From Chloroflexota bacterium (GTDB lineage Bacteria > Chloroflexota > Anaerolineae > Anaerolineales > Anaerolineaceae), in contig JAAZNB010000760.1 of assembly GCA_012798515.1 (NCBI GenBank), positions 1-39,891 of the forward strand: a stretch of 39,891 bases of DNA. Direction: 5' to 3'. Under the pieces are notes generated by a model. The model was not told the origin of the DNA and made no database searches. It saw nothing but the letters and a program-made list of their open reading frames with translations. The number at the start of each line of letters is the position of its first letter. The stretch's first letter is position 1. Of this stretch, positions 6,243 to 27,417 are shown piece by piece. Made by a program: the position numbers and the translations under genes.

Positions 6243-6351
6243 ACACAAAACCGCGTTCCATGGAATAGCTACGTTGAGCCGGCGCAGGGCCATTCCGCAA
6301 ATTCGGTGAACAGGCGTGGCGCCGGGGTTTTAAAACCACCCAAAAGAATAT

Positions 6352-6380: not shown

Positions 6381-6607
6381 ATTATATCATTCCTACATGT
6401 ACCCACAGATTGGTGAAGGTAATTGTTATTGGTCACCACCCTTTTTTATTAAAAAACAAACGAAAACACCAGCCACTTGAGAAGATTCTCCTGGCCCCGA
6501 TGTGTCTATCGCCAGTAGAGAAGCATGGCAAAATCCAGCTCTCCTGGAATTGTGGCCAGACATTCTTTACGAGGTGCGTACATTCTTATCGATCGAGATT
6601 ACCCGGG

Positions 6608-6650
6608 GAACAATGACCTGGAGGTGGGTTTATTGTTCTTTTATTTGTAT
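6608..6650 (+). promoter_or_regulatory. Attenuator-like hairpin in the leader
   Basis: GAACAAT (6608-6614) pairs with ATTGTTC (6632-6638), enclosing a nested ACCT-gg-AGGT stem, and TTTTATTTGTATC follows. The AT-rich stem is weak, so termination activity is only a possibility. Confidence 0.35.
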
Positions 6651-6757
6651 CTGTACTTTTTTCGGAAGGAGGCTGTGTCTTCATAGCAAGCGTAGTACCG
6701 CCCACCTGGGCGAATGTGCAACCGTAGTACCATTCTAAGTTTTCGCTAGGAGGAGAT

Positions 6758-8557
6758 ATGTTCCATAAGAAAAGCTGGTTAGTCGTCAGCCTGTTGATTG
6801 TGGTAGCCATGGTATTGGCTGCCTGCCAGCCGGCCGCGACGCCCATCGTCCAAACCGTTGTCGTTGAGCAAGAAGGTGAAACGATTATCGTCACCGCTAC
6901 GCCCGACGCCTCAGCAGAGACTTCGGCTGCTCCCGCCGAGAAGAAAGTGCTGCGCATGTCGTCCGGCGCCAGCGATCTTCCCACCATCGACACTGCCATG
7001 GCCACCGATGTGAACAACATCCAGGTCATCGAAGAAATGACCGTCGGCCTCGTGCGCCAGAACGTCCAGACCGCCGAACTGGAGCCCGGCATGGCAACCT
7101 CCTGGGAGATTTCGGACGACGGCCTGGTTTACACCTTCACACTGCGCGACGACGTGCCGTGGGTCAAATATGACGCCGCCACCGATCAGGTCGTCAACGT
7201 ACAGGACTGCGAAGGCAACAACCGCATGGTCACCGCAGATGACTTTGCTTATGGCATCATGCGCACCCTGAATCCCGCCACCGCTTCCGACTACGCTTAC
7301 GTGCTGACCCCCGTCATCGCCGGCGCAGCCGAATATAACAGCGGCGAGGTCGAGGACCCGACCACCGTGGGCGTCAAAGCCATCGACGCCACCACCCTGG
7401 AGATCAGCTTCCTGGCCCCGGCCGTCTACAACCTCAACATCGCCGGCCTATGGGTCGCCCATGCCCAGCCCAGCTGGCTGATCGAAGGCGACGACTGCAC
7501 CCAGGCCCAGGGCGACAAATGGACCGAGACCGGTTTCTACCAGGGTTATGGCCCCTTCACCCTGAAGGAATGGATCCATGACGCCTACATCACCCTGGCC
7601 AAGAACCCCCTGTGGCCTGGCACCGACAGTGTGCCGGTGCCCATGCTCGATGAGCTGACCTGGGTCGTGCTTGACTCCAGCCCCACCCTGGCCGAATTCG
7701 AATCCGGCAACCTGGAACAGGCGACCGTCCCCAACAGCGATTACGACCGCATCATGAGCGATCCCGACCTGCTCCAGCAGGTGATCTACACCAGCACCCT
7801 GGGCACCGAGTTCTATGCCTTCACCCCGGGCGTCGAGCCCACCGGTGACGTGCGCGTGCGCAAGGCGCTCTCCATGGCCATCGACCGCGAATCCCTGCTG
7901 ACCAACGTGGTCAAGAGCGGCAAGGTCGCCGACTACTTCACCAACCCCGGCGTTGCTGGCGCCCCCAAACCGGAAGCTTACCCCGACCTGGGCATCAAGT
8001 ACGATCCCGAAGGCGCCAAGGCCCTGCTGCAGGAATACCTGGACGAGAAGGGTATCACCGCCGACCAGATCACCCTGAGCCTGATGTACAACACGGACGA
8101 AAGCCGCAAGAAGATCGCCGAGACCGTGGCGGGCATGTGGGGTGACGTCCTGGGTGTCAACACCACCATCCTCAACCAGGAACGCAAAGTCTTCTTGCAG
8201 ACCCGCCGGGCCGGCACGGAGAACATCTACCGCGGCAGCTGGGTGCAGGACTACCCGGACGCCAATAACTTCCTCTCCGACGTGTTCGGCCCCGGTGGCG
8301 GTTATGCGGACGTGGTTGACTGGGAAGGCCCCAGCTACGACGAGTTCGTAAACCTGATCCAGCAGGCAGCCATGGAAGCCGATCCCGAAGCTCGTATGGA
8401 CCTGTACGCACAGGCCGAACAGATCCTCGTGACGGACGAAGCCATCATCGCCCCGCTGTACTGGTACAACACCCCCGTGTTGGTCAAACCCTACGTGACC
8501 CACTTCGACTCGATCACCGGTTACGACCGCTACGAGTTCTGGGACATTACCCAATAA
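6758..8557 (+). CDS. Peptide ABC transporter substrate-binding lipoprotein (family 5), copy 1
   Basis: 599 residues. The signal peptide MFHKKSWLVVSLLIVVAMVLAAC has a lipobox ending at Cys23, so the mature protein is lipid-anchored outside the membrane. A Ser/Thr/Ala-rich linker follows to about residue 65 and then a family-5 (SBP_bac_5, OppA/DppA type) fold: VGLVRQNVQTAELEPGMATSWEISDDGLVYTFTLRDDVPW, VRKALSMAIDRESLL and the C-terminal DPEARMDLYAQAEQIL. AGGAGG lies 4 nt before the ATG. It is clearly paralogous to the binding protein at 16254-18080 (for example VGLVRQN/VGLTRQN, GYGPFTLKEWIHDAY/SYGPYALKEWVHDSY). It stands alone without permeases, so it may deliver ligand to the Opp core further right. 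The ligand is unknown. Confidence 0.9.
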   Translation: MFHKKSWLVVSLLIVVAMVLAACQPAATPIVQTVVVEQEGETIIVTATPDASAETSAAPAEKKVLRMSSGASDLPTIDTAMATDVNNIQVIEEMTVGLVRQNVQTAELEPGMATSWEISDDGLVYTFTLRDDVPWVKYDAATDQVVNVQDCEGNNRMVTADDFAYGIMRTLNPATASDYAYVLTPVIAGAAEYNSGEVEDPTTVGVKAIDATTLEISFLAPAVYNLNIAGLWVAHAQPSWLIEGDDCTQAQGDKWTETGFYQGYGPFTLKEWIHDAYITLAKNPLWPGTDSVPVPMLDELTWVVLDSSPTLAEFESGNLEQATVPNSDYDRIMSDPDLLQQVIYTSTLGTEFYAFTPGVEPTGDVRVRKALSMAIDRESLLTNVVKSGKVADYFTNPGVAGAPKPEAYPDLGIKYDPEGAKALLQEYLDEKGITADQITLSLMYNTDESRKKIAETVAGMWGDVLGVNTTILNQERKVFLQTRRAGTENIYRGSWVQDYPDANNFLSDVFGPGGGYADVVDWEGPSYDEFVNLIQQAAMEADPEARMDLYAQAEQILVTDEAIIAPLYWYNTPVLVKPYVTHFDSITGYDRYEFWDITQ

Positions 8558-11764: not shown

Positions 11765-13714
11765 TCATTGGCAGCCGGAGCCGTAATCCAGGCTTTCCAG
11801 GTTCCACAGCACGCTGCGAGCGGTGACGTCCATGTCGAACCCGCACAGATCCGGGCGCGACACGGCCATCTTCAGGCGGTAGAACAGCGGCACCACGGGC
11901 AGATCCTGGGCAAACAGGCGTGCCACTTCTTGCTGGCGCTGCTGCAAGAGGTCCGCCTGGTCCGGGTGGGTATCCATGGCCGAAGCACAGGCCACGTCGT
12001 ATTCCGGGCTGGAATAGCCGGTGACGTTCACGCCCAACCATTTATTCTCCGCCGTGGGAATCTGGCTGGTCTCGTACAGCCAGCAGGCCGGCGTCGTGCC
12101 CGACTCCCAGGCAAACTGGGCCAGATCGAACTTGCGGCCGAACAGGATTCCATCCGGCCCCGGGGCATACAGCTCGCCTGGCGTGTAGTACTGCACGTTG
12201 ACCTGCACGCCGCACTGCGCCAGCGATTCGCTCAGCTGGCGAGCCACTTCGACGCGTAGTGCGGCTTCGGTGGTGGCATAGTTGAGCACCAGCGAGGCGC
12301 CGTCGAGCACGTTGGCCACCCCCAGAGAGGTGCGCGGCGTGGCCGGGTCGCCATCGTCATCCACCCAGCCGATCTGGTCGAGCAGGGCCTTTCCCGCCTC
12401 AACGTCGTAGGACAACGGGCTGAGCTCTGGCATATACAGGGGACTGGACGGCGCCAGGAATGTCGCCGGCACGGAAGACTGGTCCATGAGCGGCTTATGG
12501 ACGATACCGGAACGGTTCATACAATAGGTCAGCGCCTGGCGCATCCGTATGTCGCTGAAATAATCGGGACGCTCCCCCGAATAGGGATAGTAACCGTCGT
12601 CGTACGACGACGGGCGAATGCCAAAATCCAGGTGCTCCCATTCCGGGCCTTGCCCGATGTAGGCCTTGAGCTTATTGGCCTGCTGCATTTCCAGGATCGG
12701 CTCGAGCTGGTCTTCGAGCAGCGTGGTAGCGTCGATGATGTCACACTCGCCCACCTCCAACGCGGCCAGGTTATTGTCGGAAGCCTCGCCCATGAAACGG
12801 TACACCAGGTAGTCGAAAGCCGGCAGGCCCTCGGAGGCGCGGAAATAAGCCGGGTTCTTACTCAGCTGGATGTGGTCGCCGGGCACCCACTCGTCGATCA
12901 CATACGGCCCCCAACCCAACGGAGCGCGGGTAGCCACTTCGCTGGTCAGCAATGCCTCCGGGGAAAAAGCGCCCCACACGTGCTCGGGCAGCGGCATCCA
13001 GAAAAGGGTGCTGTACTGCTGGGGCAGGTAACCGGGCAATCCGACCCATTTGACCGTCAGGTCATCTGTCGCTGCGTAGGAAGCCGTACGGTAGACGACC
13101 TGCTTGGAAACCGGGGTAGCGTTCGCCGAGGCCAGCTGGAACGAATAGACCGAATCTGAGGCCTGCAGCGGGGTGCCGTCTGACCAGGTCAGGCCGGGCA
13201 GCAGGCGGAAGGCCACGCTGAGCTGGTCCATTTGCAGCGGCGAAGTACCGTCCCAGGTAATGGCGCAGTCCTGACCGGAACACCCGCTGGGCAGCAGCCG
13301 GGTCCCGGCCGTCAAAGACACCAGGTCGCCATCGTAGTTCACGATTTCATCCCCAGCCGCCACGTCGACCGCCTGAATGGCTGCGTCGCCATCCGACAGG
13401 TTGGGCATCTTGGACAGGATCACCGGCTGGGTCGAAAACTGGCGAGTATCGAAGGGGCCATCGTAAACCGCCTCCAGGATGCTCCAGGTGCTGTCCGAAA
13501 TGCCGCCATAAGGGTACAGTGTCTCAGGCTCCTGGCCCACACACACCACCAGGGTGCGCGGTTCCGGCGTCGCCGTGGGGGTGGGCAGCGGCGGCACCGG
13601 CGTCGCCAGCTCCTGCGTGGGGCTGACGCTAACCGGCGTGCTCTGGCAGGCAGCCAACATAGGAATCAGTACAGACAGCAACATCCCAAAAAGTAATCCT
13701 TTTCGCGAATGCAT
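11765..13714 (-). CDS. Peptide ABC transporter substrate-binding lipoprotein (family 5), divergent copy
   Basis: 649 residues. Signal peptide MHSRKGLLFGMLLSVLIPMLAAC with lipobox Cys23, then a Thr/Pro-rich linker (PVPPLPTPTATPEPRT) to about residue 55. The fold is SBP_bac_5: VCVGQEPETLYPYGG, LPGLTWSDGTPLQASDSVYSFQLA, GWGPYVIDEWVPGDHIQLSKNP and IRMRQALTYCMNRSGIV. It differs clearly from the two closely related copies at 6758 and 16254, so its ligand is probably different. It sits downstream of oppC but behind a strong terminator (13855-13874) and has its own -10 (13785-13790), so it is a separate unit. AGGAG lies 6 nt before the ATG. Confidence 0.88.
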   Translation of the reverse strand: MHSRKGLLFGMLLSVLIPMLAACQSTPVSVSPTQELATPVPPLPTPTATPEPRTLVVCVGQEPETLYPYGGISDSTWSILEAVYDGPFDTRQFSTQPVILSKMPNLSDGDAAIQAVDVAAGDEIVNYDGDLVSLTAGTRLLPSGCSGQDCAITWDGTSPLQMDQLSVAFRLLPGLTWSDGTPLQASDSVYSFQLASANATPVSKQVVYRTASYAATDDLTVKWVGLPGYLPQQYSTLFWMPLPEHVWGAFSPEALLTSEVATRAPLGWGPYVIDEWVPGDHIQLSKNPAYFRASEGLPAFDYLVYRFMGEASDNNLAALEVGECDIIDATTLLEDQLEPILEMQQANKLKAYIGQGPEWEHLDFGIRPSSYDDGYYPYSGERPDYFSDIRMRQALTYCMNRSGIVHKPLMDQSSVPATFLAPSSPLYMPELSPLSYDVEAGKALLDQIGWVDDDGDPATPRTSLGVANVLDGASLVLNYATTEAALRVEVARQLSESLAQCGVQVNVQYYTPGELYAPGPDGILFGRKFDLAQFAWESGTTPACWLYETSQIPTAENKWLGVNVTGYSSPEYDVACASAMDTHPDQADLLQQRQQEVARLFAQDLPVVPLFYRLKMAVSRPDLCGFDMDVTARSVLWNLESLDYGSGCQ

Positions 13715-13894: not shown

Positions 13895-14917
13895 TTACTG
13901 CGTTCCACGCAGGCGAGGGTCAAGCGCATCGCGCAGGCCGTCGCCCAGGAAGTTGAAGGCGAACATGGTAATCGCCAGGGCCAGGGCCGGGAAGATGGTC
14001 TGGTTCGGATAGGTGCGCACCACCTGGGCGCCATCCGAAATCATCGCTCCCCACGAAGGCGTGGGCGGGTTCACCCCCAGGCCGATGAAGGACAGGAAAG
14101 CCTCCGTCGAGATATAGCCGGGGATGGCCAGGGTCTCGGCCACGACCAACGGCCCGACGATATTGGGCAAAATGTGGCGGAACATGATGCGCCCATTGGT
14201 CGCCCCGATGGTGCGCGCCGCTTCCACGAACTCTTTCTCACGCACCGAGAGCACTTGCCCGCGGGTCAGGCGCGCCATGGTCTCCCAGGCGGTCAGGCCG
14301 ATGCCGATAAAGATGAACAGCATACCGCCCATTTTCTGGTCTACCTGGCTGATCGAATAGACGAACGAACCGGGGTCTGGACGGGCAAACGTAGAGCGGA
14401 AGAAGGCCAGCAAAAGGATGATGAACAGCAGGCTGGGGAAGGCGTACAACACGTCTACAATGCGCATCATGAAATTGTCGACCTTGCCGCCAAAAAAGCC
14501 CGATACGCTGCCGTAGATCACACCGATCAGCAGGCTGATGAACGGGCCGATCAACGCCACGGTCAGGGAGATACGCGCCCCGTAGATGATACGGCTGAAC
14601 ACGTCCCGCCCGACGTAATCGGCGCCGAGGAAATAGTTCTCCGAAATCTTGGCATAGGGCGCCATACTGGGGAAAACGGACACGATCCAGCCTGGTACCT
14701 TATTTTCGTCGACCAGGGTTTGCTTTTCAAAGGGATATGGCGCAATGACACTAGCAAGAATTGCGACCAGATAAAGCAACAGGATTATCACGCCGCCTAA
14801 AACGGCGGCCCGGTTTCGCACCAACCTGCGCAACGCATCGCCCCACAGGCTTTCACGCTTCTTGGTTAATGGAGCGCCTGCACCAAACTTCGCATCCACT
14901 TGCAACTGTGCAGTCAT
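13895..14917 (-). CDS. oppC: Peptide ABC transporter permease (OppC/DppC family)
   Basis: 340 residues. One of two inner-membrane permeases that form the channel. An N-terminal cytoplasmic stretch precedes the first helix (AAVLGGVIILLLYLVAILASVIAPYPF, 54-80), and five more helices follow in the binding-protein-dependent permease domain. The EAA loop that docks on the ATPase is VEAARTIGATNGRIMFRHILPNIVGPLVV. GAGGAGG lies just before the ATG. It is the last gene of the opp operon, 78 nt after oppB, with a small CCAGG/CCTGG hairpin in the gap. Confidence 0.92.
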   Translation of the reverse strand: MTAQLQVDAKFGAGAPLTKKRESLWGDALRRLVRNRAAVLGGVIILLLYLVAILASVIAPYPFEKQTLVDENKVPGWIVSVFPSMAPYAKISENYFLGADYVGRDVFSRIIYGARISLTVALIGPFISLLIGVIYGSVSGFFGGKVDNFMMRIVDVLYAFPSLLFIILLLAFFRSTFARPDPGSFVYSISQVDQKMGGMLFIFIGIGLTAWETMARLTRGQVLSVREKEFVEAARTIGATNGRIMFRHILPNIVGPLVVAETLAIPGYISTEAFLSFIGLGVNPPTPSWGAMISDGAQVVRTYPNQTIFPALALAITMFAFNFLGDGLRDALDPRLRGTQ

Positions 14918-14995: not shown

Positions 14996-16051
14996 CTAAT
15001 CATAACGAATGCGCGGATCCAGGTAAGCATAGACGATGTCTACAATCAGGTTCGCCACCACCAAAAAGACGGCATACAAAAGGATCGTGCCCATGATCAC
15101 CGGGTAATCCCGGTTGGTGATACTGGTCACAAAATACTTCCCCATGCCGGGGATACCGAAGGTCAATTCAGTCACGAACGTGCCCGTGACCAGGGCGGCG
15201 AACAGCGGGCCGATGATGGTGATCACCGGGATGAGAGAATTCTTGAGGGCGTGGCGTAAGATAACCATACGCTCCTGCAAGCCTTTCGCGCGGGCGGTAC
15301 GGATGTAGTCTTCCCGCACGACTTGAAGCAGGCTGGCGCGCGTCAGGCGGGCGATGATCGCCGAACTGCCCAACCCAAGGGCAATCGAAGGCATGAAGGC
15401 GTATTTAAAGAATTCCCAATCCAGGTGACTGGGGAGGAACCCCAAGAGATACGGTGGCTTGGCCCCCCAACCGGTTGGTGGGAACCACTTCAACGTCACC
15501 CCAAAGATCCAGATCATCAACGGCCCCAGGACGATGACCGGCACCGAGACGCCGAAGATGGCAATGCTCATGCCGATGTAGTCAAAGACGGTGTTCTGTT
15601 TCAAAGCCGACAGGATTCCAAGGGGCATGCCGATCACCAACGCCACCAGGAGCGCCATGGTACCCAATTGGGCCGAGACCGGCAGCTGCTGGCGGAAAAT
15701 ATCATTGACGGTGCGGCTGCGCGAGGCGTACGAAGGACCAAAATTGGCCCACTTCAACCACATTCCGCCCAGTTTGACGTTGAGCAGGTAGTCGTCATCC
15801 AGGCTGGTGGAAGGCGGCTCGGTGGTCAGGTGTGGGATAAACACGTCCGTCAAATAACGACCATACTGCACAATCAAGGGATCGTCTAGATGGTAGCGTT
15901 TTTCCAGGTTCGCCATGATTTCGGGCGGGAGCGCCTTCTCGCGGTCAAACGGGCCGCCCGGGACAGCATGCATGAGGCCAAATGTAATTGCAGAGACGAC
16001 CAAGAGAACAACGACCAGGTAGATCAACCGGCGGGTAATATATCGACCCAT
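14996..16051 (-). CDS. oppB: Peptide ABC transporter permease (OppB/DppB family)
   Basis: 351 residues, partner of oppC. The first helix near the start (RLIYLVVVLLVVSAITFGLMHAVPGGPFD) is typical of OppB, which opens with a short cytoplasmic arm. The EAA loop reads ARAKGLQERMVILRHALKNSLIPVITIIG. A periplasmic-side insertion of about 60 residues lies between helices 1 and 2, as usual in this subfamily. GGAGG lies 6 nt before the ATG. It is separated from the binding-protein gene upstream by 202 nt containing two strong inverted repeats, which may uncouple the expression levels of binding protein and permease. Confidence 0.92.
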   Translation of the reverse strand: MGRYITRRLIYLVVVLLVVSAITFGLMHAVPGGPFDREKALPPEIMANLEKRYHLDDPLIVQYGRYLTDVFIPHLTTEPPSTSLDDDYLLNVKLGGMWLKWANFGPSYASRSRTVNDIFRQQLPVSAQLGTMALLVALVIGMPLGILSALKQNTVFDYIGMSIAIFGVSVPVIVLGPLMIWIFGVTLKWFPPTGWGAKPPYLLGFLPSHLDWEFFKYAFMPSIALGLGSSAIIARLTRASLLQVVREDYIRTARAKGLQERMVILRHALKNSLIPVITIIGPLFAALVTGTFVTELTFGIPGMGKYFVTSITNRDYPVIMGTILLYAVFLVVANLIVDIVYAYLDPRIRYD

Positions 16052-16253: not shown

Positions 16254-18080
16254 TTACTTGGCAGACATGTCGATGTCCCACTTTTCCATGTGCTCAAGAC
16301 CGCCGAGCACAGAGAACGTGCGGGTTACGTACGGCTTGGTGGTGGAAACGCGGGTGTACCAGTAGATCGGGATGATCGCGGCTTCGTCCCACGACAGGAT
16401 CTCTTCCGCCTGAGCGTACAGGTCGGTACGAGTGGCCAGATCGGGCTCAACCGCGGCTTCCTTCAGAAGCGATTCGAACTGATCGTTGACCATGTTGATG
16501 CCACCGTAGGGGACATCTCCATCCGCCGGGTTAGAAGAACCATTGACGCGGAACACGTCGGAGATGAAGTTGTTGGCATCCGGGTAGTCCTGGCACCAGC
16601 CGAGGCGCCAGAGCTGCGGGGTATCGCGGCTCTTGACAGTCTCGAGGTACACAGCCCATTCCTGGTTGACGATCTTGACATCCACACCCAGGTTGTCCTT
16701 CCACATTTGCTGGATGGTTTCAGCAATCTTCTGGTGGCCGGAATTGGTGTTGAACACCAGGCTGATGTCAAGCTGGTCGGCGGTCTGGCCGGTCTCATCC
16801 AGGTATTCCTGCAGGACGGCTTTGGCCTGTTCGGGGTCGTACTTCACACCCAGATCGGGGTATTCTTCGATGGTCGGGGCAGCGCCCAGGCCGGGGCGAG
16901 AGAACCACTGAGCGGGTTCCTGGTCACCTTTGAGCACGTTGTCGATCAACGCCTGGCGGTCTACGGCCAGCGAGAGGGCGCGGCGGACGCGGACGTCATC
17001 CACAACCGGGGCCTTGGTGTTGAAGCCATAGTAGTAGGTGCACAGGTCAGGGGCGATGCGCAGTTCAGTGGAAAGCGTCGGGTCAGCTTTCACACGGTCC
17101 ATGTCGGCCAACGGGACGAGAGCGACGTCCAGGTTGCCGGCTTCGTATTCGGCGAAGGCAGGTGCATCGTCGAGCATGGTCCAGGTGATCTCATCGATAT
17201 TGGCCTGCGGGACGGCATCGCTACCGGGCCAGAAGGGGTTCTTGATCACGGTCAGATAAGAGTCATGGACCCATTCCTTGAGGGCGTAGGGGCCGTAGCT
17301 CTGGTTGAAACCGGTCTCGATCCAGCGATCGCCGCGGGCTTCGGTGCAGTCGTCGCCGTCGATCAGCCAGCTCGGCTGAGCGCGGGCAACCCACATACCG
17401 ATGATGTTCAGGTTGTAAGCAGCAGCCTGGTTGAAGGTCACTTCCAACGTGGCGTCATCGATAGCCTTGACACCCACGGTGGTAGGATCGTCGGTCTCGG
17501 CGTTATTGAAGGCAGAAGCGCCCTGGATCACTTCGAGGACGTAGGCATAGGGAGAACCGGTGGTGGGGGTCAGGGTGCGCAGGATGCCGTACTCAAAATC
17601 CTTGGCAGTGACCATGCGGTCGTTGCCTTCGCAGTCCTGAACTGTCACAACCGAGTCGGTCGCCACGTCATATTTCACCCAGGGGACATCCTGGCGGATG
17701 TTCATGGTGTAGACCAGGCCGTCATCGCTGATGGTCCAATCGGTGGCCATGCCGGGTTGGTTGTCAGTGGTCTCTTCATTCTGGCGGGTGAGACCCACGG
17801 TGAGCAGCTCGATCACCTGGTTCGAGGAAGTATCCTCCGCCACAGCCGGATCCAGCGTGGGGATGTCGCCCGCACCCATGTTCAGGCTGAGGGCCTTTTT
17901 GTCAGATACCTCTGCCATACCAGTATCGGCGCCCGGGGTCGGGGTCACAACGACCACCTGAGGGGTACCTTCAACGATTACGGTCTGTACGATCGTCTCC
18001 GGCGCAGCAGGCTGGCAAGCTGTCAATAGCATGCTTGCAACGATCAGCAAAGCTGCAAACGCAAACAGTTTTGAACGCAT
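16254..18080 (-). CDS. Peptide ABC transporter substrate-binding lipoprotein (family 5) of the opp operon
   Basis: 608 residues. The signal peptide MRSKLFAFAALLIVASMLLTAC places the lipidated Cys at 22; a PTPGADTG-type linker follows and then the SBP_bac_5 fold (VGLTRQNEETTDNQPGMATDWTISDDGLVYTMNIRQDVPW; VRRALSLAVDRQALIDNVL; DLATRTDLYAQAEEILSWDEAAIIPIYWY). It presumably captures oligopeptides and hands them to oppB/oppC. AGGAGGAG lies 6 nt before the ATG, directly after an 8-bp hairpin and a short upstream ORF. Its place between the ATPase genes and the permease genes, with structured RNA on both sides, suggests it is made in excess over the membrane parts. It is closely related to the copy at 6758-8557. 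Confidence 0.93.
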   Translation of the reverse strand: MRSKLFAFAALLIVASMLLTACQPAAPETIVQTVIVEGTPQVVVVTPTPGADTGMAEVSDKKALSLNMGAGDIPTLDPAVAEDTSSNQVIELLTVGLTRQNEETTDNQPGMATDWTISDDGLVYTMNIRQDVPWVKYDVATDSVVTVQDCEGNDRMVTAKDFEYGILRTLTPTTGSPYAYVLEVIQGASAFNNAETDDPTTVGVKAIDDATLEVTFNQAAAYNLNIIGMWVARAQPSWLIDGDDCTEARGDRWIETGFNQSYGPYALKEWVHDSYLTVIKNPFWPGSDAVPQANIDEITWTMLDDAPAFAEYEAGNLDVALVPLADMDRVKADPTLSTELRIAPDLCTYYYGFNTKAPVVDDVRVRRALSLAVDRQALIDNVLKGDQEPAQWFSRPGLGAAPTIEEYPDLGVKYDPEQAKAVLQEYLDETGQTADQLDISLVFNTNSGHQKIAETIQQMWKDNLGVDVKIVNQEWAVYLETVKSRDTPQLWRLGWCQDYPDANNFISDVFRVNGSSNPADGDVPYGGINMVNDQFESLLKEAAVEPDLATRTDLYAQAEEILSWDEAAIIPIYWYTRVSTTKPYVTRTFSVLGGLEHMEKWDIDMSAK

Positions 18081-18195: not shown

Positions 18196-19172
18196 TTAAA
18201 CCAGGTGACAGGCCACGTGATGGCCCGCGCTGACCTCACGAAATTCGGGTTGGATCTCTGAACATTTTTGGATAGCAAGGGGGCAACGTGTGCGAAAACG
18301 ACAACCAGACGGAGGGTTAACCGGAGAAGGAACATCCCCTGGTAGAATGATGCGCTGCCGTTTCTCTTCCGCAAGGGGATCGGGAATCGGAACAGCTGAC
18401 AGCAATGCCTGAGTATAGGGATGTAAGGGATTTTTGTACAGCTCGTCACGGCTGGCGAGCTCGACGATAATCCCCAGATACATCACCGCCACACGATTCG
18501 AGATATGGCGAACCATGGACAGGTCGTGGGCGATAAACAAGTAGGTAAGGTTCAGGTCGCGCTGCAAATCTTCCAACAGATTGACCACCTGGGCCTGGAT
18601 GGATACATCCAGGGCCGAGATGGGCTCATCACAGACGATCAATTCAGGGTCCAAAGCCAGAGCCCGGGCAACGCCGATGCGCTGCCGCTGCCCGCCGGAA
18701 AACTCGTGCGGATAGCGATTCGAAAAGGCCGGGTTCAACCCTACCATTTTCAAAAGATACTCGACTCTTTCCTGTTGTTCTTTACCCTGATGGGTCTTGT
18801 GGATTTGCATGGGCTCGGCGATGATTTCCCCCACCGTCATACGCGGATTCAAACTGGCGTAAGGATCCTGGAAGATCATCTGCATCTTGCGTCGCGTTTT
18901 TCGCAGCGTCTCGCCGTTCACCTGTACCAGGTCTACACCTTCGAAAATCACCTTCCCGGAGGTGGGCCGGTAGAGCTGGAGGATCGTCCGGCCGGTGGTC
19001 GATTTACCACAACCTGACTCTCCCACCAGGCCCAGGGTCTCACCTTTTTTGATATCGAAGGAAACGCCATCCACGGCATGTACGGCACCCACTTGCTTTT
19101 CGAAAATAATGCCGCGCATGATGGGGAAATGTTTAACCAGTTGATCGACTTGCAATAGCGTTTCAGGTGAAC

Positions 19173-19176
<4 letters not shown>
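18196..19176 (-). CDS. oppF: Oligopeptide ABC transporter ATPase (OppF/DppF family)
   Basis: 326 residues. Cytoplasmic ATPase powering peptide import. Walker A is GESGCGKST (about 54-62), the signature [15 protein letters not shown], and Walker B LIVCDEP, with the H-loop in [14 protein letters not shown]. The C-terminal oligopeptide-transporter extension has a Cys-rich signature ([14 protein letters not shown]...HHVACHLV), which in some DppD/DppF homologues binds an iron-sulfur cluster. The ATG at 19176 overlaps the oppD stop by 4 nt (ATGA), so the two are translationally coupled, as expected for a heterodimer. Confidence 0.95.
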
Positions 19177-20162
<986 letters not shown>

Positions 20163-20250: not shown

Positions 20251-20279
20251 ATTTTACACTGAAAGAATTATATTGTCAA
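20251..20279 (-). promoter_or_regulatory. Strong sigma70-type promoter of the opp operon
   Basis: On the minus strand TTGACA (20274-20279), a 17-nt spacer and TAAAAT (20251-20256). It sits in an AT-rich divergent region of 160 nt shared with the plus-strand serine hydrolase gene. Confidence 0.75.
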
Positions 20280-20322
20280 ACTGAACCAGACAAACATCAT
20301 CTAATAATGGAGATGATAACCC

Positions 20323-21093
20323 ATGAATCACCCACCCTATGACCCACGCACCGGCATCGCCGCCGCTGTAGAGCGCCTGGAGGCGCTGGGCTGCGAGTAC
20401 GCTTTCTTCTACAAACGCCAACAACAGGCGCCGGTTCTCAAATCCAATGCCAGTTGTTTCGTCTCGGCCTCGCTGATTAAAGTGCCACTGCTGCTGGCCT
20501 GGCTGATGCTCGAGCGTGAGGGCCAGGTCAGCCGGGAAGAAATGTGCTGCCTGGACGACGAGCCCCAGGTGGAAGGCGCCGGGTTTTCCTGGCTGCTGCG
20601 CACCCGCCAGCTGCCCTACGACGATGTGCTGCTGCTGATGATGTCCTTATCGGACAACCTGTGCACCAACCTGGTCATCCGCAAGGTCGGCCTGGAACGG
20701 GCCAACCAGGTCTTCACAGACGCCCTCGGGCTGCAGGACGCCCGCTTGCAGCGTAAAATGATGGATCTCGAAGCCCGCGCCCAGGGCCGGGACAACTGGA
20801 TTTCTGCCCAGGACTGTGTGCGGCTGTACGAGTTCATCGACCGCCTGCCCGCCCACGAACGGCGCTGGATCGAGCAAAAAATGCAGACTTGTATGGATGA
20901 GGCTTTGCTGCTGCGCGAAGTGCCCCGCGACCAGGTGGTGTTCTATCACAAGACCGGCTCGCTGTCCGGCATCTTCCACGATTGGGGTTATACCCGGGAA
21001 CACAAGATGTTCCTGCTCACCCAGGGCGTCTCGGATGAACTGGCGGCATTTGCAGTCTTCGGCCGGCTCGGTCGCTTGCTGTACGAAGCCTGA
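20323..21093 (+). CDS. Serine hydrolase with class A beta-lactamase fold, no signal peptide
   Basis: 256 residues. All three active-site motifs are present: Ser50-x-x-Lys53 (SASLIK), Ser110-Asp-Asn (SLSDN) and Lys210-Thr-Gly (HKTGSLSG). The GRDNWISAQDCVRLYEFID stretch matches the NxxSAxDLAxL segment of the class A fold, and an acidic residue (Glu150) could play the omega-loop role. Unlike secreted beta-lactamases it has no signal peptide or membrane anchor and carries at least six cysteines, so it should work in the cytoplasm. Relatives are often named simply serine hydrolase. It is divergent from oppD and faces cell-wall peptide genes, which suggests a peptide amidase or carboxypeptidase role; that is inference. 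A GGAG lies 9 nt before the ATG. Confidence 0.85.
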   Translation: MNHPPYDPRTGIAAAVERLEALGCEYAFFYKRQQQAPVLKSNASCFVSASLIKVPLLLAWLMLEREGQVSREEMCCLDDEPQVEGAGFSWLLRTRQLPYDDVLLLMMSLSDNLCTNLVIRKVGLERANQVFTDALGLQDARLQRKMMDLEARAQGRDNWISAQDCVRLYEFIDRLPAHERRWIEQKMQTCMDEALLLREVPRDQVVFYHKTGSLSGIFHDWGYTREHKMFLLTQGVSDELAAFAVFGRLGRLLYEA

Positions 21094-21216: not shown

Positions 21217-22221
21217 TTATAAATAAGTACACCCGAACAAGAAATCGCTGCGCAGGTGCTCGACGGATTGCACGTTATCGATGTACACGCCATTGCGGGA
21301 ACGCGAAGAGTGGATGATGTCCCAATCGCCCAGGCTGATGGTCACGTGAGTGATGCGCCGCTTTTCACCCTTCTCTCCAAAGAACAACAGATCGCCGGGC
21401 CGGAAGGGGTATTCCACCGGCCGGCCGCCGTTGTACTGCATATCCGCGTCGCGCAGCACCGGGATCCCCACCCAGCGGTGTACCAGCTGGGCCAGCCCGG
21501 AACAGTCGATGCCGTTGGCGCTGCACCCGCCCCACAGGTAGGGCACACCAATCATCCGCTGCGCGTCTGCCGCCATCCTCTGGCGGCGTTCGTCAGCCTG
21601 GTGGGGCAGCGCATCCAGGGCGCGTAATGCCGAGGCCGGCACCCAGCCCTGCTGGTTGGCCGCCACACAGGCCCACTCCCCTTCCACAGCCAGGCAGCGC
21701 AGAGACATGCCGGCCAGGATTCGCGTGAGCACCGCACTGCCGCCATCCGGGGCAGCGTGCACCGGCTGTACAGGGTCGATCACCAGATGGGTGGGTTGCG
21801 GCGCCGCAGCCTGTGTCAGGTACGGGCGGTAGGCCCACCCCAGGTAGCCGTCGGGCTGGCGTACAAAGACCCAATTGGAACGTTCCTCCAACATTTCCAC
21901 CGGCCAGCCGTACATCAGCTCGCTGACCATTTCGCTGGAGAAGCTGGGCTCGCCGTACAGCCCGGTGAGATTGGTGGCCACGCTGAACATCTGCGCCGGC
22001 TGCCGGCGTAACACCCGGACGCCGCTGTCCTCGACCGGGACACCCGGCATCTGCTCCTGAAAGGCGCTGCGCATGGCGCCGCGCACAGTCTCATCCAACA
22101 CCCGCCCGGTCAGAACCAGCCTGCCCGCTTGCTGGGCTTCCGCCTGCACGTCAAACACGTGCACCCTGACATCCGGGAACTGCTTGCGCAGTTGACCTAA
22201 AACGTTCTCCACAGACTCCAT
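21217..22221 (-). CDS. NlpC/P60 cysteine peptidase with N-terminal BON-like and two SH3b domains
   Basis: 334 residues. Residues ~1-72 look like a BON domain (VRVHVFDVQAEAQQAGRLVLTGRVLDETVRGAMRSAF); two bacterial SH3 domains follow (~75-137 with LYGEPSFSSEMVSELMYGWPVEMLEE, and ~147-203 with GWVPASALR). The NlpC/P60 domain (~210-334) carries Cys240 (GIDCSGLAQ), His292 (RITHVTI) and His304 (IIHSS). The SH3b-NlpC/P60 core matches gamma-D-glutamyl-L-diamino-acid endopeptidases of the YkfC type, which cut L-Ala-D-Glu from the rest of murein peptides in the cytoplasm. No signal peptide is present, in agreement. AGGAGC precedes the ATG by 7 nt. It follows the epimerase gene by 157 nt, so a common transcript is likely. 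Confidence 0.88.
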   Translation of the reverse strand: MESVENVLGQLRKQFPDVRVHVFDVQAEAQQAGRLVLTGRVLDETVRGAMRSAFQEQMPGVPVEDSGVRVLRRQPAQMFSVATNLTGLYGEPSFSSEMVSELMYGWPVEMLEERSNWVFVRQPDGYLGWAYRPYLTQAAAPQPTHLVIDPVQPVHAAPDGGSAVLTRILAGMSLRCLAVEGEWACVAANQQGWVPASALRALDALPHQADERRQRMAADAQRMIGVPYLWGGCSANGIDCSGLAQLVHRWVGIPVLRDADMQYNGGRPVEYPFRPGDLLFFGEKGEKRRITHVTISLGDWDIIHSSRSRNGVYIDNVQSVEHLRSDFLFGCTYL

Positions 22222-22378
22222 TCCAACCGCTCCTGAACAAAGATGATCCGGCGGCCCCGGGCAGCCGCAGCGCCGAAAACCGCCGATCGATTTTGATTAA
22301 AACATTGGTAAACTATTGAGAAAGCGGGGGCTCCTGATTTTAGGAAAATGGCTCTTGCCCTCTCTGGCTTATCTCGTA

Positions 22379-23410
22379 TTAAAGAGCATCCGCTTTGAGC
22401 GTAACCCCAATCCCGGGGCGCTCCGGCAGGCGCAGGACGGCATTGGCGTCGATACGCACCCCCTCGAAGGGGTCATTGCTGACCAGCAAGGGCGCATCCA
22501 GGTCCAGCCAATCGGCCATCCCGGCCAGGTGCGCCATGGCAGTGATGCCGACCGAGGTCTCGATCATCGATCCCAACATGACCCGCAGGCCCAACTCCTG
22601 ACAGCGGCGCAGGATGTGCAGCGCCGGCGTGAGCCCCCCCACCTTCATCAACTTGACGTTGATCCCCTGCACCCCGGCAGCCGCCAGGCGTTCGACCTGC
22701 TCGTAGGTCTGCACCGATTCGTCCGCCACCACCGGCACCGGGCATTCTGCCTGCACCCGGCCCATGCCTTCGATGTCGTCTTTGCGCAGCGGCTGTTCGA
22801 TCAGCTCCACGTTGTATTGCATCAAGGTTTTGACCAGCTGCCGGGCGTTGTCACGCGTCCAGCCGGCGTTGGCGTCCACCAGCAAGCGCACGTCCGGTCG
22901 CGCCTGGCGGATGGCGGCCAGGCGGGCTTCGTCGTCTTCACTACCCAGCTTGACTTTGATAATCCCATACCCCGGCACTTCACTGGCCAGGCGCGCCATT
23001 TCCTGCGGGGTATCGATGGCAATGGTAAAAGAAGTGGCCATGGGCTGCGGCTGTGGCAGTCCCAGCAGCTCGTAAAGGGGTACACCCCGTTTCCGGGCCA
23101 TGCGGTCGTACAGCGCCAGGTCCAGGGCGCTGCGTGCCGGGGCCGGGCCGTCCGTCCCTACCCAGCCGGGCACCTGCTCCGGCTCCTCGGGCAGGGGATC
23201 TGTGCGCCGGGAAGCCCGCTCCCAACAAGCCATCATATCCGCCGGGTCTACCCCGTAGTAGGGCGGGATGGTACCTTCTCCCCAGCCCTCGTCACCGGCC
23301 AACCGCACACAGAACGCCTGGCGCGTCTCGCTGACCCCGTAGGATAAACGAAATGGATTGCGCAGGTGGAGGGTGAACTGTTCCCAGGTCAACAATGCAG
23401 TCGGAATCAT
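22379..23410 (-). CDS. ykfB: L-Ala-D/L-Glu epimerase-like enolase superfamily enzyme
   Basis: 343 residues, muconate-lactonising subgroup of the enolase superfamily. The catalytic lysines are Lys152-x-Lys154 (IIKVKLG) and Lys253 (GINVKLMKVGG); the Mg2+ ligands are Asp179 (LLVDANAGW), Glu205 (ELIEQPL) and Asp230 (VVADESV). This lysine pair with a second lysine on barrel strand six is the dipeptide epimerase pattern. Such enzymes turn L-Ala-D-Glu, released from murein, into L-Ala-L-Glu for ordinary dipeptidases. The neighbouring NlpC/P60 gene would make exactly that dipeptide. Other dipeptide or N-acyl amino acid specificities cannot be excluded. AAGGAG lies 9 nt upstream of the ATG. Confidence 0.85.
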   Translation of the reverse strand: MIPTALLTWEQFTLHLRNPFRLSYGVSETRQAFCVRLAGDEGWGEGTIPPYYGVDPADMMACWERASRRTDPLPEEPEQVPGWVGTDGPAPARSALDLALYDRMARKRGVPLYELLGLPQPQPMATSFTIAIDTPQEMARLASEVPGYGIIKVKLGSEDDEARLAAIRQARPDVRLLVDANAGWTRDNARQLVKTLMQYNVELIEQPLRKDDIEGMGRVQAECPVPVVADESVQTYEQVERLAAAGVQGINVKLMKVGGLTPALHILRRCQELGLRVMLGSMIETSVGITAMAHLAGMADWLDLDAPLLVSNDPFEGVRIDANAVLRLPERPGIGVTLKADAL

Positions 23411-23492
23411 ACAGCCTAACTCCTTCTCAAAAGCTCAACGTTGAAACGCCCTCCTCCGGCGCCAGGGCTATCCTGGCCGGGGAAGGCGCGGG

Positions 23493-24407
23493 TTATTCGT
23501 CTCCACCACGCAGGCGCAGGTACGACTCGTAGCGCCTGGCGTGGATGCGGCCCTGGTCGACCGCGGCGCGCACTGCACAGCCCGGTTCGTTGGTATGCGT
23601 GCAGTCGTTGAACTGGCAGTGCTCGACGAAAGGCCGGATCTCGACAAAATACGCGTCCAGTTCCTCGGGCTCGGTATCCCACAATGACAGGGTGCGCAAC
23701 CCGGGCAGGTCGGCCACGTAACCGCCCTCCTCCAGCGAGAACAGCTCCCGTACCTGGGTGGTATGGCGGCCCTTCAACGTAGACTGGCTTACCTCGCGCA
23801 CTTCCAGGCCCAGCTGGGGGCGGATGGCGTTAAGCAGGCTGGATTTGCCCACTCCCGAGGGCCCTGCCAGGCCGGAAATCTTGCCCACCAGGCACTGGCG
23901 CAGAGCTTCGGCGCCCAGGCCCTCCCGCGCCGAAGTATACAGCACAGGGTATCCCAGCGGCGAGTAGATCGAAAAGATCTCCATGGCCCGCTCCTGGCCG
24001 ATCAAATCCACTTTATTGGCCACGATCACCGGCGGGATGTTTTGTTTCTCGCAGATCACCAGAAAACGGTCCAGCATCCGCAGGCTGGGAGCCGGCTGCG
24101 AGCAGGCAAACACCAGGACGATCTGGTCGGGGTTCGAAAGTAATACTTGCTGGTAGGCGCCCCGCGCCGTGGGCGCCAGGCGTACCAGGGCCTTCTGGCG
24201 GGGTTCCACACGCTCGATGGCGCCGCTGCCATCCGGCAGAACGCTGATGTGCACCCGGTCCCCCACGGCCACGATATCGCCCTCCTGGGGGCCTTTTTTC
24301 AAACGGCCGCGCAAACGACAAACTACCACCCCCTGCCCCGTCTGGACGGAATGAAAACCAGACTGCTGCCGTACCACAAGGCCGGGGGTGGTAGGTTCTG
24401 GGCTCAT
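23493..24407 (-). CDS. rsgA: Ribosome small-subunit-dependent GTPase A
   Basis: 304 residues. A circularly permuted GTPase acting late in 30S maturation. The order is an OB-fold (~8-70), then G4 (VIVANKVDL), G5 (YTSA), G1 (GPSGVGKSSLLN), the switch (STLKGRHTT) and G3 (VADLPGLR), and a C-terminal zinc domain with Cys/His ligands in HCQFNDCTHTNEPGC. The start at 24407 overlaps the PBP stop by 4 nt (ATGA). The ORF is normal in length and all GTPase motifs are intact. Confidence 0.95.
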   Translation of the reverse strand: MSPEPTTPGLVVRQQSGFHSVQTGQGVVVCRLRGRLKKGPQEGDIVAVGDRVHISVLPDGSGAIERVEPRQKALVRLAPTARGAYQQVLLSNPDQIVLVFACSQPAPSLRMLDRFLVICEKQNIPPVIVANKVDLIGQERAMEIFSIYSPLGYPVLYTSAREGLGAEALRQCLVGKISGLAGPSGVGKSSLLNAIRPQLGLEVREVSQSTLKGRHTTQVRELFSLEEGGYVADLPGLRTLSLWDTEPEELDAYFVEIRPFVEHCQFNDCTHTNEPGCAVRAAVDQGRIHARRYESYLRLRGGDE

Positions 24408-26719
24408 AGCTCAGGTGTAGCGGTAATCACAAATTCGTCCGGCTGGGACTCGGTCTGCGTATTCTCGGCCGGAGGAGCCGCGGGAGGCGGCGCACTGGTG
24501 GCGGCCGGTGGGGCCGGCGGCGGCGTCTCGGTGGGCGTCTCACTCTCCGAAGGCGTCGGCGTCTTGGTCACGTAGTAGCTGGATTCCCAGTTGTACAGGC
24601 GGCCCGGACGACCGTCGAAATACAGCTCGACGACGCGGCGGAAGATCGGCGCCGCAATTTCGGAGCCCTCGCCGGCGTTCTCAGCGATGACCGCCACAGC
24701 AATGTCCGGCTTGTCCTCACGATTGGCGTCTGTAAAGCCGGCAAACCAGGCGTGGGGCACCCCGGTCGAATTCGAGGCCGTGCCGGTCTTGCCATATACC
24801 GGGACGCTGATCCCGGTGAACACGCTGAAAGCCGTGCCGCGCGGGTTGTTGACCACGCTGCGCATGGCGTCGCGGATGATTTGCATGGTATCAGAGCTGA
24901 TCGGCAGTTGGCCACGCTTTTCCGGGGTAAACTGCATGGCCACGTCGCCGTTCGGCGAGACTACTCTCTCCACCACCTGCGGGCGGTACAGCGTACCGCC
25001 ATTGCCGATAGCCGCGATGAAATTGGCTACCTGGAGTGGGGTCACCTGCAGGGTGGCCTGGCCGATACCCATCTGCACTGCGTCGCCTTCGTTGTTCGGG
25101 TAAGGCACGTTCCCCGTGTCCTCGGCCACCTGGTCGATGCCGGTGGCGCTGCCCAGGCCAAAGCCACGCGCCATCTCGGTGATGGCCTCGGGATGGTTCT
25201 GGCGATACAGCTGCAAACCGATGTGGTAGAACCACGGGTTACAGGAACGCATCAGGCCTTCCGGCAGGGTTAGCGTACCGCTGGGCGCCAGGCCCTTGTC
25301 ATACGTCCAATCGTAGAAGACCGACCCGTCCAGCTCGGTGAATTCGTGCCCGCACTCGTAGGTGTCTTCAGGCTTGAACACGCCGGTTTCCAGGGCAGCT
25401 GACATGGTGATGAGCTTGAATACCGAGCCGGGTTCGTACCCGCCCTGCGTGGCGCGGTTGAGCAGCATCCGGTCCGATGAATTGAGGATTTCGTTGGTCA
25501 GGTAAGAGCTGTTGTAATTGCTGGCCTCAAAAGAATTGGGGTCAAACTCGGGCGACGACACCATAGCCAGCACCCGGCCGGTATCACGTTCCAACACTAC
25601 GATGGCGCCTTTGAAACCGGCAATCGCCCGCTGCGACTGTTCTTGCAGGAACATGTCGATGGTGCTGTAGACCGAATAGGCAGGCTGCGAATCGGTCTGC
25701 GCCAGGCGGGTGATGATCTCGCCGTTAGGATCGGTCACGTACAGGGATGCCCCGCGCGTCCCGGTCAGGTAATCCTCGCCCCATTTCTCCAGGCCAGACC
25801 AACCCACCTTTTCGTCGATGCGATAGCCTTTGCGCTGGTATTCTTCCAGTTGTTCCTGCGGGATGGAGAGCACGTAACCGGTGACGTGCGGCGCCACGCC
25901 GCCGTCATAATAGAAACGCGAGGAGAAAGGATTGACCCACAAGCCGGCCATGCCCGATATGACGTCGTAGCGTTCGCTGACCTCCTGGGCCGGGACCTCG
26001 CCGATGGGCACGTAATCCTGTGGCAACGCGTCTTCCAGCATGCCCATGATCGCCAGAGGAGTCTTGCCGGTCATGGTGCCCAGGATGCTCAACAAGGCAT
26101 TGCGGTTATCATCGTCGATCTCGCCCGGGATGACGCCCAAGGCCATGGCATCCGCCTGGGCCGCCAGGGCCTCCCCATCGCGATCGTAGATGTTGCCGCG
26201 CGCCGGGATCTTCAAGTCCAGCGCCAGGTGATTGCCGCCGCGCAGTTCCGGCAGGATCATGCCATCTTCCCACTGTACACGCCACTGGCCGTTCTCGACG
26301 GCCAGGTTCATCACCATATCTCGCGAGACGTCACCCATCAGGGAAGTATGGAAGGTAACCCCATAAGCCACCTGGGCCGATTGAGGATTGGTCAGGGAGG
26401 AGAGGATCTGGAACTCCAGACGCTGCAAGCTCAAATTGAGCGTCGTCTCTTTGTAGCGGTTCGAAAACTCATCCAACGTAATCGAGTCTTGGGTGATGCG
26501 GGTCAGCATGGCGTACATGGCTTCGTAGTTGTCGGCCTGCCACGCTTCCAGGAAAGCCTGGGCAGCCGCCTGAGCATCTGGGGCACGCGTGACGTGCACC
26601 CCCGGCTCAGGCAGCGAGGTAGGCGATTGTACAACCTCTGGGGTGGTGGCCTGTGGCCCCGTAGAAGTACAGGCGGCCAACACGATCAACGACATTAGGA
26701 CCCAAAAACGAAACTTCAT
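24404..26719 (-). CDS. Lipoprotein class B penicillin-binding protein with MecA_N-type domain
   Basis: 771 residues from the ATG at 26719. I chose this start over the upstream in-frame ATG at 26740 because AGGAGG (26730-26735) precedes it by 10 nt and it overlaps the maf stop as ATGA. The N-terminus MKFRFWVLMSLIVLAAC is a lipobox signal (Cys17) instead of the usual membrane helix. Residues ~48-155 fit an NTF2-like MecA_N domain, ~170-330 a PBP dimerisation domain, and ~365-700 the transpeptidase with Ser432-x-x-Lys435 (GSVFK), Ser492-Cys-Asn494 and Lys644-Thr-Gly646. A Pro/Thr/Ala tail follows. It should cross-link peptidoglycan outside the membrane, possibly with a specific glycosyltransferase elsewhere. 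Confidence 0.92.
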   Translation of the reverse strand: MKFRFWVLMSLIVLAACTSTGPQATTPEVVQSPTSLPEPGVHVTRAPDAQAAAQAFLEAWQADNYEAMYAMLTRITQDSITLDEFSNRYKETTLNLSLQRLEFQILSSLTNPQSAQVAYGVTFHTSLMGDVSRDMVMNLAVENGQWRVQWEDGMILPELRGGNHLALDLKIPARGNIYDRDGEALAAQADAMALGVIPGEIDDDNRNALLSILGTMTGKTPLAIMGMLEDALPQDYVPIGEVPAQEVSERYDVISGMAGLWVNPFSSRFYYDGGVAPHVTGYVLSIPQEQLEEYQRKGYRIDEKVGWSGLEKWGEDYLTGTRGASLYVTDPNGEIITRLAQTDSQPAYSVYSTIDMFLQEQSQRAIAGFKGAIVVLERDTGRVLAMVSSPEFDPNSFEASNYNSSYLTNEILNSSDRMLLNRATQGGYEPGSVFKLITMSAALETGVFKPEDTYECGHEFTELDGSVFYDWTYDKGLAPSGTLTLPEGLMRSCNPWFYHIGLQLYRQNHPEAITEMARGFGLGSATGIDQVAEDTGNVPYPNNEGDAVQMGIGQATLQVTPLQVANFIAAIGNGGTLYRPQVVERVVSPNGDVAMQFTPEKRGQLPISSDTMQIIRDAMRSVVNNPRGTAFSVFTGISVPVYGKTGTASNSTGVPHAWFAGFTDANREDKPDIAVAVIAENAGEGSEIAAPIFRRVVELYFDGRPGRLYNWESSYYVTKTPTPSESETPTETPPPAPPAATSAPPPAAPPAENTQTESQPDEFVITATPEL

Positions 26720-27417
26720 TTGTTGTTTTCCTCCTGGCATGCTGCCAGATGTTCATCCGGTCGAAAATCCGGCCGGACGGCCTGGAAGACAGGACAATCA
26801 TACCGCAAATTTCCCTGGCACACGAGTGGTGCATCCAGGGCAGGATTCAGACCCAACTTCGCCGCCAGGCGCGCCAGGTTGCACAACGGCAGGCCCATCA
26901 CACAGGCATAGCAACCCCGGAAGTCCTCCACGGGGTGGAAACCGGCGTGTTGGATGGCGTATGCCCCGGCCTTGTCGAGCGGGTCGCCGCTGGCGACGTA
27001 GGCCTCCAGCTCGGCCTGGTTGTAAGCGCGCATGTGTACGTCCGTTCCACACAGGTCGGTCACCAGGCGCTCCTGCTGCGGGGAGAACAGCGCCAGGGCG
27101 GTATACACCTGGTGCGTGCGACCGCGCAGGCGGGCAAGCATATCCGCCGCCTGGCGAGCGTCTGCCGGTTTTCCCAGGATATCGATCCCATCCGCCACGG
27201 TGGTGTCTGCCGCCAGGATCAACACACCCGGTGCGACCAGCGCAGCGGCCGCACGCGCTTTCGTCTCTGCCAGGCGCAAGACGTAAGATTCGGGGCGTTC
27301 CTCAGGATAGGGGGTTTCATCGATGCCGACCGGAGCAACGTCAAAAGACCACCCCGACCAGGCCAGTATTTGCCGCCGGCGTGGAGAGCCGGACGCCAGT
27401 AGAATTTGCGGAACCAT
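26716..27417 (-). CDS. maf: Maf family nucleotide pyrophosphatase
   Basis: 233 residues. Maf enzymes hydrolyse dTTP/UTP or modified nucleotides (house-cleaning) and are tied to septum formation. Motifs: ILLASGSPRRRQIL (5-18), the DETP segment, ILAADTTV, and DKAGAYAIQ. A C-terminal extension of about 35 residues beyond the usual end holds VCQGNLRYDCPVF, a pair of cysteines not typical of the family. It is the first gene of a three-gene unit, overlapping the PBP start by 4 nt. No Shine-Dalgarno precedes the ATG; a TGATACAAT extended -10 lies only 9 nt upstream. Confidence 0.92.
   Translation of the reverse strand: MVPQILLASGSPRRRQILAWSGWSFDVAPVGIDETPYPEERPESYVLRLAETKARAAAALVAPGVLILAADTTVADGIDILGKPADARQAADMLARLRGRTHQVYTALALFSPQQERLVTDLCGTDVHMRAYNQAELEAYVASGDPLDKAGAYAIQHAGFHPVEDFRGCYACVMGLPLCNLARLAAKLGLNPALDAPLVCQGNLRYDCPVFQAVRPDFRPDEHLAACQEENNK

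Follow-up and report, generated by a model that had tools for sequence, protein, structure and literature searches.

A leaderless serine hydrolase encoded beside peptide-transport genes in a Chloroflexota bacterium of the family Anaerolineaceae has the motifs and the predicted fold of class A beta-lactamases and lacks the omega-loop glutamate (Glu166) of that class. The gene, here called BL, lies in a stretch of 39,891 nucleotides ("the window"), which is one whole contig (G000:C252) of a genome of 4.9 Mb in 768 contigs; close relatives with named records also belong to the Anaerolineaceae. A role of some kind for BL in murein-peptide catabolism is very probable. Our more specific proposal, that BL is a cytosolic serine peptidase that would release D-Ala from murein peptides by L,D cleavage, is tentative and falls somewhat short of probable.

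Sequence, predicted fold and omega loop

The BL gene and the sites that we refer to below are as follows.

20317 to 20319, + strand: in-frame stop codon TAA, two codons before the ATG of BL, leaving no room for a signal peptide
20323 to 21093, + strand: BL, a leaderless class A beta-lactamase-fold serine hydrolase (ATG start, 256 amino acids; PF13354 match and structure model)
20470 to 20481, + strand: S50-L-I-K53 (SxxK), with Ser and Lys catalytic by the rule of the family
20650 to 20658, + strand: S110-D-N112 (SDN), from sequence and alignment
20752 to 20796, + strand: omega-loop region R144-N158, with Met146 at the Glu166 position
20950 to 20958, + strand: K210-T-G212 (KTG), from sequence and alignment

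BL matches the Pfam family PF13354 (Beta-lactamase2) with 121 bits (cut-off 22), and its score of 38 bits with the NCBIfam class A beta-lactamase model NF033103 lies below the cut-off of 200. The original prediction held that SxxK, SDN and KTG are intact, and the alignment agrees, with the catalytic residues invariant apart from the threonine of KTG. S50, K53, S110, D111, N112, K210 and G212 are identical in 28 of 28 aligned sequences (the window protein and 27 of 29 loci from named records; L046 and L063 were excluded), and position 211 is T in 23, S in 3, I in 1 and P in 1. The isoleucine is found in L038 and the proline in L045, both of which keep the remaining catalytic residues.

An AlphaFold2 model of BL built from the 28 sequences (pLDDT 95.5, pTM 0.92) predicts a class A fold. 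The best PDB match in both fold (Z 31.3, rmsd 2.6, 248 residues aligned) and sequence (E 2.6e-23) is 4hes, a solved structure of a "Beta-lactamase class A-like protein" from Veillonella parvula. Both proteins carry an MMD...GRDN omega motif, although they are only ~27-30% identical; we found no function for 4hes, and none of the papers listed in a text search for its code contained it. Further fold matches are 4ewf (Z 29.1), 6v4w (28.6) and PBP-A (27.9, tied with LRA-5), and TEM-1 structures rank next, with Z near 27.

BL thus combines the three motifs of class A beta-lactamases with their predicted fold. The position of their omega-loop glutamate is occupied in BL by Met146, which pairs with Leu158 of PBP-A from Thermosynechococcus (2j7v) in a phmmer alignment that is gap-free there. 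Leu occupies this position in 21 of the 28 aligned sequences and Met in the other 7. Since none has Glu, BL fails the defining residue; judged by its sequence, it is a class A fold without the residue that defines class A beta-lactamases. The same description, a class A fold lacking the omega-loop glutamate, fits PBP-A. The two differ in that they share 20% identity, and BL is leaderless and linked to peptide-catabolism genes. PBP-A itself is exported, and a Nostoc relative of the fold carries a leader. Residue 158 of PBP-A is the site of an L158E mutant in the PDB list, and an excerpt of PMC11189452 describes a glutamate introduced into PBP-A where the catalytic Glu of class A enzymes aligns structurally.

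A catalytic role for Glu150, which the original prediction named for the omega loop, is not supported. This residue is not at the Glu166 position, and it is E in only 13 of the 28 sequences (A in 8, K in 4, and D, S and P in 1 each), on which ground we reject it as a relocated general base. The description of the protein as cysteine-rich is fair, although the enrichment is modest (7 Cys in 256 residues). All 28 sequences share Cys75 and Cys114, the latter lying two residues past SDN, in an enzyme that is presumably cytosolic.

The absence of a signal peptide was also part of the original prediction, with the proviso that a missed upstream start could add one. No hydrophobic run is seen at the N terminus on inspection of the sequence, so that BL lacks the export signal of a class A beta-lactamase, and the in-frame TAA excludes a missed upstream start and hence a longer N terminus with a signal peptide. 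All 12 BL orthologues lack a leader by eye at the chosen starts, with some frames open further upstream, and the partner NlpC/P60 protein described below likewise has none. From the missing leader, BL is presumably cytoplasmic. An excerpt of PMC2954226, the paper on the structure of B. cereus YkfC, places B. subtilis YkfB and YkfC in the cytosol on the same grounds, the absence of a signal peptide.

Gene neighborhood and co-occurrence

The genes that flank BL in the window include those for a peptide transporter and for two putative enzymes of murein-peptide breakdown.

11765 to 13714, - strand: second peptide-binding protein (SBP_bac_5; ORF and Pfam)
13895 to 14917, - strand: OppC-like permease (named by eye and position)
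14996 to 16051, - strand: OppB-like permease (named by eye and position)
16254 to 18080, - strand: peptide-binding protein (SBP_bac_5; ORF and Pfam)
18196 to 19176, - strand: OppF-like peptide transporter ATPase (ORF and Pfam)
19173 to 20162, - strand: OppD-like peptide transporter ATPase (ORF and Pfam)
20251 to 20279, - strand: candidate sigma-70-like promoter toward oppD (11/12, consensus match only), in the gap between the divergent BL and oppD genes
21217 to 22221, - strand: leaderless NlpC/P60 peptidase with SH3 domains, YkfC/DPP VI-like (Pfam and PDB matches)
22379 to 23410, - strand: enolase-superfamily dipeptide epimerase, YkfB-like (Pfam and PDB matches)

The BL gene diverges from oppD and converges on the NlpC gene; therefore, in the window it forms no operon with either. 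The best match of the NlpC/P60 protein is dipeptidyl-peptidase VI, and B. cereus YkfC is matched too. The epimerase best matches 3iji (named muconate cycloisomerase), followed by a dipeptide epimerase and the B. subtilis L-Ala-D/L-Glu epimerase. Its KxK and DLD motifs are conserved in 18 of 18 aligned rows; DxD is presumably the element that binds the amino end of the dipeptide. The window thus holds a ykf-type cluster, in which a leaderless NlpC/P60-SH3 protein and an L-Ala-D/L-Glu-type epimerase lie near a peptide transporter, although the epimerase scores below the NCBIfam cut-offs (236 of 400 for DgcA and 139 of 343 for L-Ala-D/L-Glu epimerase). B. subtilis ykfABCD with its dpp genes likewise places NlpC/P60 and epimerase genes beside a peptide transporter. 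It differs from the window, in whose genome no S66 gene was found and BL is present instead.

The order Maf, PBP2-like, RsgA, epimerase, NlpC (21217 to 27417, - strand, in the window) is common in many Anaerolineaceae loci, even where BL is distant; it occurs without NlpC and BL in G006 and without the epimerase in G031. The PBP2-like transpeptidase of the window (24404 to 26740, - strand) has a MecA_N (NTF2-like) domain and a lipobox-like N terminus, and the stop of its gene overlaps the RsgA start by 4 bases. A peptide-binding lipoprotein gene at 6758 to 8557 (+ strand) resembles by eye the opp-cluster gene at 16254 to 18080, in the opposite orientation.

Among 37 Anaerolineaceae genomes, BL is present in 13, the epimerase in 17 and NlpC in 15, with thresholds placed at gaps in the hit tables (E < 1e-60 for BL and NlpC, E < 1e-100 for the epimerase). 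Both NlpC and the epimerase are found in 13 of 13 genomes with BL versus 1 of 24 without it (Fisher P 4e-9, uncorrected for relatedness); the exception is G036, which is 77% complete. The NlpC/epimerase pair lies outside the stretch read around BL in 9 of the other 12 genomes with BL, and inside it in 3 of the 12 orthologous loci. An oppD gene is found within ~1.3 kb of BL in 10 of these 12, one of which is cut by a contig end.

In the 29 loci from named records, a set that shares 11 of the 12 orthologous loci and so is not independent of them, OppD is encoded within 3 kb of BL in 21, NlpC or the epimerase is present in 13, either kind of partner in 23, and neither in 6 (L039, L043, L046, L056, L058 and L063, with L046 and L063 on contigs shorter than 9 kb). 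The genomes of L039, L043, L046 and L058 encode the epimerase elsewhere (E < 1e-120) and also NlpC (E 2e-96, 3e-55 in two pieces, 4e-64 and 4e-104, respectively), and those of L056 and L063 gave no strong match to either. The record of L048, titled Clostridiales bacterium UBA10908, groups inside the Anaerolineaceae rows of the tree and is probably mistitled.

A profile search of 301 Chloroflexota genomes produced BL matches in 76, and as a distant sample we examined 25 of the 26 rows that come next after those of the Anaerolineaceae. NlpC/P60 is encoded at most 1 kb from BL in 6 of these 25 loci (L107, L108, L109, L115, L118 and L119). In 7 loci an epimerase-like enolase lies 5 to 8 kb from BL (as a weak, edge-cut hit in two: L113, 69 bits; L116, 41 bits), and 12 loci have neither. 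By comparison, neither NlpC nor the epimerase occurred in any of 20 arbitrarily chosen 16.7-kb stretches of genomes covered by the same searches. L108 shows a 4-base overlap between the NlpC and BL genes, and in L109 the two directly adjoin each other; a proline dehydrogenase gene lies upstream of the pair in both loci. Linkage to the epimerase is less tight, because in L110 unrelated genes are among those scanned between epimerase and BL.

We considered an MMD-like omega motif as a mark of linkage to NlpC or the epimerase and set it aside. In the 25 distant loci, sorted by eye, 13 of 17 with the motif and 0 of 8 without it are linked (Fisher P 5e-4), but the rule was made after seeing the data and the count includes the two edge-cut epimerase hits. 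A Deinococcus relative (L189) is linked although it has no MMD-like motif. In a tree of 66 rows, in which Opp alone sufficed to label an Anaerolineaceae row as linked, linked rows are clustered (7 changes versus a shuffled mean of 19.3, with 0 of 500 shuffles as low). The starred branches of this quick, bootstrap-free tree force at least 4 changes of linkage, which argues against a single origin of the linked forms. On the evidence of these sequences, the association of BL with its partners is either old or was made more than once. Two more PF13354 proteins of the window's own genome, on G000:C386 (L033) and G000:C535 (L034), branch at a great distance from BL in the tree, and a hydrophobic stretch is present at the N terminus of L034.

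Relatives in other phyla and in haloarchaea

A search of a plasmid collection with BL gave 7 records, from Cetobacterium, Fusobacterium, Cupriavidus and Halorussus, and searches with three of the relatives added Halostagnicola, Deinococcus, Granulicella, Aureimonas, Rhodothermus, Nostoc and Nonomuraea. Eleven records were read, leaving out Nonomuraea, the second Cetobacterium and the second Cupriavidus. By hydropathy and eye, 8 of the 11 relatives are leaderless, and 6 of these 8 lie near relevant genes. The Deinococcus relative has a nearby ABC transporter, M20 peptidase, NlpC/P60, dipeptide epimerase and MurR/RpiR regulator, and that of Halostagnicola, whose start is annotated 9 codons longer than alignment with Halorussus suggests, has NlpC/P60 and a dipeptide epimerase annotated nearby. 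Near the relative in Halorussus halophilus are an ABC transporter, diaminopimelate decarboxylase and M42, and a C40 peptidase lies ~4 kb from that of H. salilacus. The Cetobacterium relative is near glutamate racemase, diaminopimelate decarboxylase and M20, and the Fusobacterium relative is near an enolase-superfamily protein. No partner genes were seen by the Aureimonas relative or among the five neighboring Cupriavidus ORFs scanned. The three leader-bearing relatives (Granulicella, Rhodothermus and Nostoc) are without these partner genes; next door are a peptidoglycan-recognition protein in Rhodothermus and a SpoIID/LytB protein in Nostoc.

To our knowledge, haloarchaea make no murein. The haloarchaeal genes should therefore serve foreign murein, which suggests scavenging. 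On the Halostagnicola larsenii plasmid (L188), NlpC/P60, dipeptide epimerase and BL-relative genes lie together at 4278 to 7849, an odd set for a murein-free organism. Land plants, which are without peptidoglycan, also have such epimerases, according to an excerpt of PMC3605383. Among the matches listed in the open-licence literature, none connected epimerase/NlpC clusters with a protein of beta-lactamase fold, and none connected murein-peptide catabolism with haloarchaea.

The original prediction of a peptide carboxypeptidase or amidase in a recycling cluster therefore stands in one part, a leaderless hydrolase tied to murein-peptide genes in 13 of 13 genomes and in other phyla. "Recycling" fits less well and may be better termed catabolism or scavenging, because haloarchaea, which are without murein, carry relatives in the same setting. 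Carboxypeptidase is the activity that we favor for BL, as a prediction.

Proposed function and alternatives

In the proposed pathway, the Opp-type transporter encoded next to BL would import stem peptides of the bacterial cell wall. Once these are in the cytosol, BL would form an acyl-enzyme on Ser50, assisted by Lys53, Ser110 and Lys210, and would remove the terminal D-Ala, most likely by L,D cleavage, from the tetrapeptide or from diamino acid-D-Ala, which is the YkfA/LdcA slot. The NlpC/P60 enzyme would split L-Ala-gamma-D-Glu from the diamino acid, and the epimerase would turn L-Ala-D-Glu into L-Ala-L-Glu, on which ordinary peptidases could then act.

This scheme has precedents. In part of the text of PMC2954226, B. 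subtilis YkfA (an S66 LD-carboxypeptidase, as is LdcA), YkfC and YkfB are proposed to act in the cytosol on imported stem peptides, with YkfA in the slot that we assign to BL. The S66 enzymes differ in belonging to PF02016, which is not among the Pfam matches of BL, while BL matches PF13354. A passage in PMC9928106 reports that a YkfC orthologue cleaves tri- and tetrapeptide, with mDAP-D-Ala remaining from the tetrapeptide; D-Ala therefore still has to be freed. ElsL of Acinetobacter baumannii, according to an excerpt of PMC8649774, has no leader and functions in cytosolic recycling, although its fold is that of wall enzymes which are usually secreted; it differs from BL in its YkuD fold and cysteine chemistry.

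VanY is absent from all 13 BL genomes and S66 from 10 of the 13, including the window's own. S66 is found in 3 of 4 epimerase-bearing genomes without BL versus 3 of 13 with BL, a difference that is not significant (P 0.10); a clean replacement of S66 by BL is thus suggestive only. Three BL genomes also hold S66. YkuD matches number 57 in the 13 genomes, of which 30 were read as loci. A hydrophobic 12-residue stretch (mean hydropathy at least 1.59) lies upstream of the domain in 28 of these, several with a Tat-like RRxFL, and the other 2 are fragments, so that the 30 loci read offer no clear candidate for a leaderless, ElsL-type YkuD protein as the missing carboxypeptidase.

We favor D-Ala release by BL, and L,D over D,D cleavage, because of the YkfC leftover, the absences of S66 and VanY, and the ElsL precedent. 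The L,D preference is the weakest step of the proposal. The SxxK peptidases known to us act on D,D bonds, as does PBP-A, a relative of BL. Also against the L,D reading, 6 of 29 loci have no partners nearby, 2 of these 6 genomes lack strong partner orthologues, and G036 has NlpC and epimerase without BL.

It is possible, though doubtful, that BL represents one more type of structure, besides S66 and leaderless YkuD, that removes D-Ala from murein stem peptides in the cytosol. A leaderless class A fold lacking Glu166 would then function in a murein-scavenging module of Chloroflexota, Deinococcota, Fusobacteriota and haloarchaea, and murein-free archaea would use a cytosolic peptidase of beta-lactamase fold to eat bacterial cell wall. 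Placing the leaderless family members in murein-peptide catabolism, if true, would fill an apparent gap in the route of genomes that have no S66 enzyme, would offer a natural relative without Glu166 for studying how peptidases gave rise to beta-lactamases, and would predict that some haloarchaea feed on bacterial cell wall.

A D,D activity like that of PBP-A is rather unlikely. BL would then trim D-Ala5 of imported pentapeptides or open D-Ala-diamino acid cross-links in the cytosol, with another enzyme, or none, acting on D-Ala4. PBP-A is close in fold (Z 27.9) and likewise has no omega-loop glutamate, and D,D cleavage is the usual chemistry of the superfamily. However, PBP-A, a D,D-peptidase according to an excerpt of PMC11189452, is only 20% identical to BL, and the D,D reading leaves the D-Ala4 step open in genomes free of S66 and VanY, unless YkfC-type cutting of the tetrapeptide suffices.

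Less likely still, BL may be a serine peptidase or amidase that cleaves a different bond in D-amino-acid peptides or peptides derived from murein, working alongside NlpC and the epimerase or at a later step. The relatives in Cetobacterium and H. halophilus, with diaminopimelate decarboxylase and M20 or M42 and no annotated NlpC within ~8 kb, are consistent with such a role, as is the Cupriavidus relative beside amidohydrolase and CN-hydrolase genes. The fold and motifs of BL, however, are those of D-Ala peptidases and beta-lactamases.

An intracellular class A beta-lactamase acting on entering beta-lactams is very improbable. The fold and the three motifs would suit it, but Glu166 is missing, the NCBIfam class A score is 38 versus 200, and the loci read are tied to peptide catabolism rather than to resistance genes; on these three grounds we reject a beta-lactamase proper. 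Leaderless family members named beta-lactamase or serine hydrolase could be miscounted as resistance genes, a naming that placement in murein-peptide catabolism, if true, would correct. We give as little credence to a non-catalytic murein-peptide sensor that controls the divergent opp genes: BL is divergent with oppD, and the fold is present in BlaB (2wuq), deposited as a beta-lactamase regulatory protein, but all 28 aligned sequences keep the catalytic residues and Pfam found no DNA-binding domain in BL.
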